Shown here piece by piece: positions 3,347 to 5,681 of a DNA stretch of 47,592 nucleotides. The notes under the pieces are model-generated. The model saw only the letters and a list, made by a program, of their open reading frames with translations. It searched no databases and was not told the DNA's origin. A program made the translations under genes and the position numbers. Source of the DNA: Bacteroidales bacterium (GTDB lineage: Bacteria; Bacteroidota; Bacteroidia; Bacteroidales; PUMT01); the NCBI GenBank assembly GCA_007133565.1, contig SLMM01000081.1:1-47592 (forward strand). Direction: 5' to 3'. How positions within the stretch are numbered: position 1 is the stretch's first letter; each line of letters starts with the position of its first letter.

Positions 3347-3419
3347 TGTCCTGTGGTGTAATTGGCAACACGTCTGACTCTGGATCAGAAGAGTCCAGGT
3401 TCGACCCCTGGCAGGACAA
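3347..3419 (+). tRNA. tRNA-Gln (anticodon CTG)
   Basis: The 73 bases fold as a full cloverleaf. The acceptor stem TGTCCTG pairs perfectly with CAGGACA, followed by discriminator A. The D stem is GTGT/ACAC. The anticodon stem TCTGA/TCAGA closes the loop CTCTGGA, giving anticodon CTG, which reads CAG. The variable loop has five bases and the T stem CCAGG/CCTGG carries the loop TTCGACC. The 3' CCA is not encoded. It stands alone, with its own promoter and terminator. The cognate synthetase gene glnS is about 16 kb away in the same window. Confidence 0.96.
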
Positions 3420-3432
3420 CAAGATATTCAAA

Positions 3433-3554: not shown

Positions 3555-5681
3555 CTACCGGTCCTCCTTATGTATGTACTTTTCAAACAGCGATTTTATC
3601 CCCCTGGGCTCGCCTATTATTGTAATGATATCGCCCTCCTTTAACCTGGTCTCACCTCTCGGGGTAAAGATGTGATCTTTCCTTTGCACCAGGGCTACAA
3701 GAACATCGGTTGGCAAAGATATTTCCCTCAGAGACCTGTCTATCAGGTCTTCCTGTATGGTTCCCCGCTGAAGGTGCAGGGTTATGTACCGGTCGTTATG
3801 CAGCAGGTATTCCTTGAGCTCTCTCTGGTTCTTTATGCATATAATGGTCCCGACGAAACTGTCGCGTTCAACAATATCCATCAGTCTGGAAAGAAGGCGC
3901 AGGCGCTGCTTGGGCTCATCACTCCTACTCAGCATGAAGAAAAAGACCCTGATGTTGTCTTCTGATGATATCTCTCCTTTTCTTACCGGCTTTTTCACTC
4001 CCCGCTCAGAAATAACAACGTGAAGAACCGGGTGCTCAATATTAGCAGCTTCGGCATACAATATCGAAACCCTGGGGATGACGAGTGCAGGGTCAATACC
4101 CGTTACCGCAAGGAACTGTTTTTTCAGGTCTCCCTTGTCGATGCCACTGATATCCTGGGCAAATTTCTTTATAACATCGGTAATAAGCGACCTGAAAGCT
4201 ACCCTCTTTCTTCCCAGGTCGGTTATCCTTGCCTTCACTACCATTTCATTGAAAGGGTCGCCATCGCGTAACCCTTTTTCTTTAAGGATATGCAGAAATT
4301 CATTCTCGAGCGATTTATGCTCTTTCCTGCCAAGTATGGCAAACCAGTGAAAAATAGCACCCTCCCTCCTTATCCTTTTCCTTGCATAGTACCAGTACCA
4401 TGCTACAGCTATTGCCGAAATGCCCATGGTAAACAATCCGGGACCCCATCCAAGGTAAATGATAAGAAAGAAGGAAGTGACTATGCCGAATATCTGCATC
4501 CAGGGATAAAGAGGTGAAAGATATCCGGGGTCATAAGCTTCTATTCTGCTGTTGCGCATTACAATGACCGAGGCATTTACCAGCATGAATATAAGAAGCT
4601 GGAAACTGCTGGCCAGTTTTGCAATATCGCTTTCACTAAGAAATATTATAACCACAAGGAGTATGGCTGTGGTTACCAGTACCGCGACAAAGGGAGTGTT
4701 AAACCTGCCCAGCCTGGCATAGATGCCCGGAAAGAGACCGTCCCTTGCCATGGCCAGGGGGAACCGCGATGCTGTCATCAGTCCTGCATTTCCCGTAGAG
4801 GCAAAAGCGCTCACTGCAGCAAAAACGATGAGCAAAGTGCCCAGACCGGGTGAGACTATTGAAAAAACACGTTTAGAAGCGCTTGACGCAGGAGCCAGAT
4901 CATCCCATAGCTGTTCAGGGGGTATAACCCCGACCATTATAAATACTCCTACTACATATATCACAGATGTAAGGACCAGCGACAATATCATCCCAAGTGG
5001 GATATTGCGCTCGGGATCCTTTATCTCTTCAGACATACTGGCAATCTGTGTAAGTCCCAGATAAGAAACAAACACCAGTCCTGTTGTTGTCATAAGCCCT
5101 TCAAACCCGTGAGGCAGGAAAGGGGTGAAATTGTCAAAGTATCCGGATGTTCCGGCAGTGAAAAATATCTCCCTCAGCCCTTCGGCCATAAAAAAGGCAA
5201 GAATTACAACCAGCATCAATACGAATACCTTCTGTACCCCGGAGGTCTTTCTTACCCCCAGTATGTTCATTAACATAAATACCATGAGAAATACAATGGC
5301 CGTGAGTCTCACGGGAACTTCAAAAAACAGTGCGGCGTAGGCACCAATCCCCACAAGCGCAAATGAGGTTTTCATTATAAGCGCCAGGTAGTTTCCAACC
5401 CCGCCAATTGTACCGAACAACGGCCCGAGACTTCTGTCAATGAAAAAATAGGCCCCTCCTGCCCTGGGTGTTGCGGTGGCAAGTTCAGACATGCTGAACA
5501 TTGCGGGCAGAATCAGGAAGGCCGCAAGGAAATAAGCCAGAAACACCGAAGGCCCTGCCTGCTGTGCGGCAATCCCGGGCAGCAGAAAGAACCCGGCGCT
5601 TATCATTGCACCGGTACTTAAAGCTATTATATCTGCCAACCCAAGCTCCCGGTTCAGCTTTGTCTTTTTTAAAAGGCCCAT
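3555..5681 (-). CDS. APC-family permease with degenerate EIIA-like and TrkA-C domains
   Basis: 708 residues. Residues 1-435 form about 12 membrane helices of the amino acid-polyamine-organocation type, with the GAMISAGFFLLPG motif in TM1 (24-36) and PRAGGAYFFIDR (72-83). A cytoplasmic tail follows. About 475-640 resembles a type 2 PTS EIIA domain (TGIDPALVIPR, then FFFMLSRSDEPKQRLRLLSRL). About 641-705 is a TrkA-C/RCK_C-type ligand-binding domain (LPTDVLVALVQR, LKEGDIITIIG). In active EIIA domains the phosphorylated His is in IPH; here the residue is Arg537 (IPR), so phosphotransfer is unlikely and a sensing or gating role is inferred. The substrate, probably an amino acid or amine, cannot be told. 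The gene converges on the tRNA. Confidence 0.88.
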   Translation of the reverse strand: MGLLKKTKLNRELGLADIIALSTGAMISAGFFLLPGIAAQQAGPSVFLAYFLAAFLILPAMFSMSELATATPRAGGAYFFIDRSLGPLFGTIGGVGNYLALIMKTSFALVGIGAYAALFFEVPVRLTAIVFLMVFMLMNILGVRKTSGVQKVFVLMLVVILAFFMAEGLREIFFTAGTSGYFDNFTPFLPHGFEGLMTTTGLVFVSYLGLTQIASMSEEIKDPERNIPLGMILSLVLTSVIYVVGVFIMVGVIPPEQLWDDLAPASSASKRVFSIVSPGLGTLLIVFAAVSAFASTGNAGLMTASRFPLAMARDGLFPGIYARLGRFNTPFVAVLVTTAILLVVIIFLSESDIAKLASSFQLLIFMLVNASVIVMRNSRIEAYDPGYLSPLYPWMQIFGIVTSFFLIIYLGWGPGLFTMGISAIAVAWYWYYARKRIRREGAIFHWFAILGRKEHKSLENEFLHILKEKGLRDGDPFNEMVVKARITDLGRKRVAFRSLITDVIKKFAQDISGIDKGDLKKQFLAVTGIDPALVIPRVSILYAEAANIEHPVLHVVISERGVKKPVRKGEISSEDNIRVFFFMLSRSDEPKQRLRLLSRLMDIVERDSFVGTIICIKNQRELKEYLLHNDRYITLHLQRGTIQEDLIDRSLREISLPTDVLVALVQRKDHIFTPRGETRLKEGDIITIIGEPRGIKSLFEKYIHKEDR

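Follow-up and report, generated by a model that had tools for sequence, protein, structure and literature searches.

Members of the Bacteroidetes are reported to lack the PTS (PMC2405797), which raises the question of what role a PTS domain can retain when there is no phosphate for it to receive. The question is posed by a gene in a 47,592-nucleotide stretch of DNA from a Bacteroidales bacterium (contig SLMM01000081.1, hereafter the window), whose product joins a permease of the APC superfamily to a cytoplasmic tail resembling EIIA and TrkA-C domains.

Architecture of the transporter and its tail

The open reading frame at 3555-5681 is intact on the minus strand and encodes 708 aa; the same stretch on the plus strand is interrupted by stops. 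Orthologues of about 700 aa are present in more than 100 genomes. The parts of the gene were delimited as follows:

3555..5681, minus strand: complete gene, 708 aa, APC permease with EIIA-like and TrkA_C domains (Pfam and orthologues)
4377..5681, minus strand: APC transporter domain, residues 1-435 (Pfam, structure comparison and helices in the AlphaFold2 model)
4230..4361, minus strand: linker, residues 441-484 (GAIFHWFAILG...EKGLRDGDPF), the most conserved part of the tail (alignment columns and lowest dN/dS)
3792..4229, minus strand: EIIA-Ntr-like (PTS_EIIA_2) domain, residues 485-630, phospho-site lost (Pfam, AlphaFold2 with Foldseek, and a profile bridge to PtsN)
3582..3791, minus strand: TrkA_C / RCK_C domain, residues 631-700, without the c-di-AMP RCK_C signature (Pfam, Foldseek and signature scan)

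The protein is predicted from its sequence to be an amino-acid-type membrane transporter of the APC superfamily. Its AA_permease match covers residues 18-412 (Pfam, E 2e-47), and among solved transporters GkApcT (5oqt/6f34) comes closest. The alignment with the CAT/GkApcT-type permeases (5oqt, 6f34; TIGR00909) runs across the whole transporter domain, 432 residues, but the window protein bears an extra regulatory tail of 268 residues, has Leu157 in place of the TM5 Lys of GkApcT and scores under the TIGR00909 cut-off. KimA also belongs to the APC superfamily, and it is not among the best 60 of the 68 matches of the window protein.

The tail alone matches PTS_EIIA_2 (PF00359) at 1.3e-6 and 28.9 bits and, at residues 646-700, TrkA_C with an E-value of 1e-12 and 48-51 bits, the Pfam cut-off being 27 in both cases; the two families are matched by 55 out of 55 homologous tails (E<=1). 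When an AlphaFold2 model of the tail, built from 55 sequences (pLDDT 80), was compared with the PDB using Foldseek, four PtsN/EIIA-Ntr structures came out on top (2a0j, 3urr, 1a6j and 4gqx; E 1.8e-7 to 4.4e-7, TM 0.64-0.74 on the target), and the end of the model matched the TrkA-C structure 3jxo. Given these PtsN matches and the Pfam matches in every homologous tail, we regard the EIIA fold predicted for the tail as secure. This bears out the first-pass annotation, which had described an EIIA fold and TrkA-C on an APC permease and had proposed a structure prediction of the tail. The likeness to PtsN lies in the fold, the order of its elements and the profile match, the difference in the fusion to a transporter and an RCK_C domain.

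Between the transporter and the EIIA part, columns 441, 442, 445, 451, 461, 469, 470 and 475 of the linker are conserved at 96-100% across 115 sequences, and this segment is probably the coupling element that joins TM12 to a putative gate. No paper describing this domain architecture was located in literature searches, most subscription journals lying outside their reach.

As for the setting of the gene, a tRNA-Gln (ctg) lies directly downstream in convergent orientation (window 3347-3420); within the named collection, Bacteroidales MAGs with sediment-type sample names hold the closest relatives. Other contigs of the same genome encode two APC/SLC12-like proteins of 739-755 aa (L003, 550-2769; L004, 535-2802), whose long soluble C-terminal parts are unlike the EIIA tail.

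The lost active-site histidines

The first-pass annotation had placed the phosphorylated His of the EIIA domain at Arg537, setting I-P-R (535-537) on the I-P-H motif. Searching 296 genomes of the phylum with a profile yielded a far group from other Bacteroidota classes (L036-L064, 29 rows) that shares the APC, EIIA and TrkA_C build. Eleven far tails (alignment A2) were used as a bridge to the PtsN structures: they match PTS_EIIA_2 with at least 62 bits and contain an invariant A-L-P-H, mostly as GVALPH. Aligned to 4gqx, 2a0j, 3urr and 1a6j, their first His falls on the His of the PtsN motif G-[IV]-A-I-P-H and their second, within ...HLRIL, also falls on a PtsN His. We take these PtsN residues to be His73 and His120, the active-site pair, both of which are thus kept in the far subfamily. 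The joint alignment of 115 tails places the first His in column 542, the second in column 593 and the Gly of the motif in column 537. In the window protein, these columns correspond to:

4071..4073, minus strand: Arg537, the Gly of G-V-A-L-P-H and not the phospho-His (alignment)
4056..4058, minus strand: Tyr542, the true phospho-His column, equivalent to PtsN His73 (alignment)
3903..3905, minus strand: Arg593, where PtsN has its second active-site His, His120 (alignment)

The alignment through the far subfamily to the PtsN structures rules out Arg537 as the phospho-site and corrects the tempting but wrong reading of IPR for IPH. Column 537 varies among E, G, R, Q, N and K in relatives, and is not a His-conserved column with a lone substitution in the window. 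Furthermore, the Pfam match of the tail starts at residue 543, which is profile position 64, in agreement with 542 as the His column and in disagreement with 537. The claim of a non-phosphorylatable site survives this correction and holds more strongly through two other residues: judged by the alignment, Tyr542, in the context VSILY and without the phospho-acceptor His of GxAxPH, and Arg593 would leave the domain with no site to phosphorylate. The change runs clade-wide, ruling out a lone substitution or a sequencing error.

Column 542 is H in 25 and Y in 4 of the 29 far proteins, and Y in 45, H in 33, F in 4, N in 3, W in 1 and T in 1 of the 87 near ones, a tally in which the far row L064 still counts as near. 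After L064 was moved to the far group, column 593 is H in 29 out of 29 far proteins, compared with Q78, H4, R2 and K2 in the near group (n=86). To relate these states to descent, we used a tree built from the APC domain alone, which is therefore independent of the EIIA trait. The window gene lies in a clade of 76 rows, mostly Bacteroidia (SH-aLRT 96), in which His593 is never present: column 593 is Q, R or K, and column 542 flips among Y, H, F and N. Over the whole tree, column 542 changed at least 16 times, among Y, H, F, N, W and T, and column 593 four times.

The domain might still be phosphorylated at His542 or Tyr542 by a kinase other than EI/HPr and so work as a phospho-switch, given that column 542 is Y or H in 78 out of 87 near members. 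We consider this very unlikely, as the repeated changes in that column, the disappearance of the second His and of the GxAxPH frame, and the absence of the PTS kinase from the genome all argue against it. That His persists at column 542 in more than a third of near members is also a point against the gate reading developed below.

Outside the 76-row clade, both His survive, though not within GVALPH, in four proteins that branch apart from it (L122, L124, L126 and L129); EI was not found in the genomes of L122, L126 and L129. Second APC-EIIA-TrkA_C paralogues, in which the second His has become Asp, occur in PTS-bearing genomes that also carry an intact copy (L164, L165 and L166); these dead paralogues represent a second, independent loss of the site. 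Two further proteins, L073 (1781-3859, minus strand) and L033, contain APC and TrkA_C domains with no EIIA profile match in the region between, and L073 is the convergent neighbour of a true orthologue.

Presence and absence of the PTS

Profile searches that were positive in control genomes detected neither HPr nor an EI N-terminal domain in the window's genome, nor a second EIIA_2 domain, a further difference from the PtsN setting. HPr and EI were both missing in 12 out of 12 near-type genomes and HPr in 43 out of 45 further ones; overall, HPr was missing in 56 of the 58 near-type genomes examined, isolates included. Both proteins were present in all 39 far-type genomes searched for the pair, and HPr was seen in 51 out of 52 far-type genomes within the 296-genome sample (214 of the 296 having it). 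The exception, G117, has an intact site and no HPr match, and its fusion resembles the antiporter type described below. Among the genomes listed, every one without HPr belongs to the window's own class (62 further HPr-less genomes lie outside that list), which agrees with the lack of a PTS reported for Bacteroidetes (PMC2405797).

The window's genome is 91% complete, so its MAG might merely miss EI and HPr, in which case the domain would be a working PTS target whose site is unusual. Absence in so many genomes rules out an incomplete MAG as the source of the missing HPr and, together with the changed site residues, makes this reading extremely improbable. The earlier suggestion that the domain senses a PTS phospho-signal is weakened likewise, HPr and EI being missing from the genome and its close relatives.

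Since HPr and the state of the motif both follow taxonomic class, the contrast between near and far groups, and with it the correlation between PTS absence and site loss, is close to a single event. We do not claim a many-fold correlation in which PTS loss caused the decay, because HPr follows class and some PTS-bearing genomes carry dead paralogues. HPr and EI are also present in the genome of L128 (Calditrichota), yet its site is dead; they are present, too, in that of L124 (Desulfobacteraceae MAG). The L128 copy is sister to one from a Flavobacteriaceae genome, and both the L128 and L124 copies may reflect horizontal transfer or misbinned contigs. In many far genomes (e.g. G321, G246, G144 and G301), the APC-EIIA gene lies on one contig with ptsH/ptsI, about 15-25 kb away, and in several a hisS-like gene adjoins it.

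A putative gate without phosphorylation

Pairwise dN/dS of the EIIA part ranged from 0.03 to 0.20 in the 11 of 12 pairs that were not saturated, which indicates that the cell still needs the dead domain. The linker had the lowest values, 0-0.06. Near members also share basic positions (K/R591 in 86/86, R599 in 73/86, R606 in 83/86 and R620 in 78/86) that lie on and after the helix following the second His; at these places the far group has mostly G/T, H/Q, E/S and Q, respectively. Low dN/dS combined with new basic positions would fit a changed task better than decay. The main competing explanation is that the EIIA-like domain is a mere spacer or dimerization scaffold that places RCK_C under the transporter, with RCK_C doing all the sensing. 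The lost phospho-site, the lower conservation of the EIIA part relative to the linker, the many transporters gated by RCK_C alone and the L073 paralogue, with no recognizable EIIA, all speak for it. We nevertheless find it rather unlikely, in view of the low dN/dS and the new basic residues, specific to the clade, at the helix of the former active site.

It was also proposed at first that c-di-AMP acts through the TrkA-C domain. Receptors for c-di-AMP are often RCK_C domains (PMC5919688) and a diadenylate cyclase is present in the window's genome, both consistent with gating by this nucleotide as in KtrA, KhtT and CpaA. However, the published RCK_C signature, (I/L)(I/L)x2DxRx5N(I/L)(I/L) (PMC10117811), was found in none of the 115 family members, even when relaxed, although the same scan recovered it in KtrA-type neighbour proteins at three loci, two in strict form. 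The missing signature weakens the proposal despite the cyclase, and c-di-AMP gating now seems most unlikely. Like KimA and the RCK_C-gated K+ transporters (KtrA, KhtT), the family pairs a transporter with a cytoplasmic regulatory domain, whether attached to it or bound by it, and the missing signature sets the family apart from the KtrA/KhtT type. A ligand-gated transporter, as first proposed, is possible, and the reading of the tail as a probable regulatory domain was right.

The neighbourhood of the gene has no conserved operon partner: neighbours are mostly unconserved, with scattered, lineage-bound links to TrkAH, Na+/H+ antiporters and Usp. Of 79 near loci, 13 carry a TrkH, TrkA or Na_H_Exchanger gene at most three genes away, a raw count without background control, and such neighbours are a weak hint of ion or osmotic control. 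In some far genomes, the EIIA-TrkA_C module is also found on a Na+/H+ antiporter. At L160 (318-2906, G089) and L161 (354-2912, G109) it is fused to a cation/proton antiporter, with the motifs GMALPH and GVALAH, respectively; the module can thus move from one type of transporter to another. These two antiporters appear to bear further RCK-like domains.

Known systems offer partial parallels. In E. coli, PtsN that carries no phosphate binds to the K+/H+ antiporter YcgO, which has an RCK domain, and inhibits it (PMC11808508); contact between EIIA and TrkA is cited in PMC4664831. YcgO-PtsN likewise pairs EIIA-Ntr with an RCK_C-bearing transporter, but it does so in trans, the transporter being a CPA1 antiporter and the effect passing via a CorC domain, whereas the window protein is one chain with an APC permease and no phospho-site. 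The cytoplasmic domains of SLC4 proteins (band 3, NBCe1) share the EIIA fold (PMC4664831) and are, similarly, EIIA-fold regulatory domains of transporters outside the PTS; they differ in being N-terminal, on another transporter family and without RCK_C. The SLC4 structure 5jho matched the tail model with an E-value of 1e-5 and a TM of 0.39-0.49. The Band_3_cyto profile was absent from the Pfam matches of the tail (E<=10) and of its 55 relatives (E<=1), so the resemblance is one of fold only.

The protein, then, puts known parts together in a new form, as an APC transporter whose putative cis EIIA-RCK_C gate no longer has its phosphorylation input. On balance, we favour as probable a cis-acting gate that outlived that input. 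The tail would be a built-in regulatory module, EIIA-Ntr (PtsN)-like and then RCK_C, tied to the last TM helix by the near-invariant linker. In PTS-bearing relatives, which keep both His, phosphorylation via EI and HPr probably sets transporter activity, an ancestral model drawn by analogy with free PtsN acting in trans on an RCK-bearing K+ transporter in E. coli. In the window's Bacteroidia branch, with the PTS absent and both His gone, the domain has been kept under strong purifying selection, and most probably it goes on gating the transporter, by its conformation or through protein contacts. The gate would then answer to another signal, via RCK_C and the altered EIIA surface. The analysis establishes the domains, the fold, which residues were lost and how they are distributed, the lack of EI and HPr, and the purifying selection; gating, the direction of its effect and ancestral phospho-control are what we infer from these observations.

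More speculatively, a cis PTS phospho-switch may have become a phosphorylation-independent gate at least twice, in PTS-less Bacteroidia and in the paralogues of PTS-bearing genomes, in parallel to the SLC4 EIIA-fold domain, the helix of the former active site having been rebuilt to bind an anion or ligand; we put this forward only tentatively. The family provides a bacterial comparison for the SLC4 cytoplasmic domains and, as it offers matched intact-site and dead-site versions of one transporter, it makes a switch from phospho-control to another form of control directly testable.
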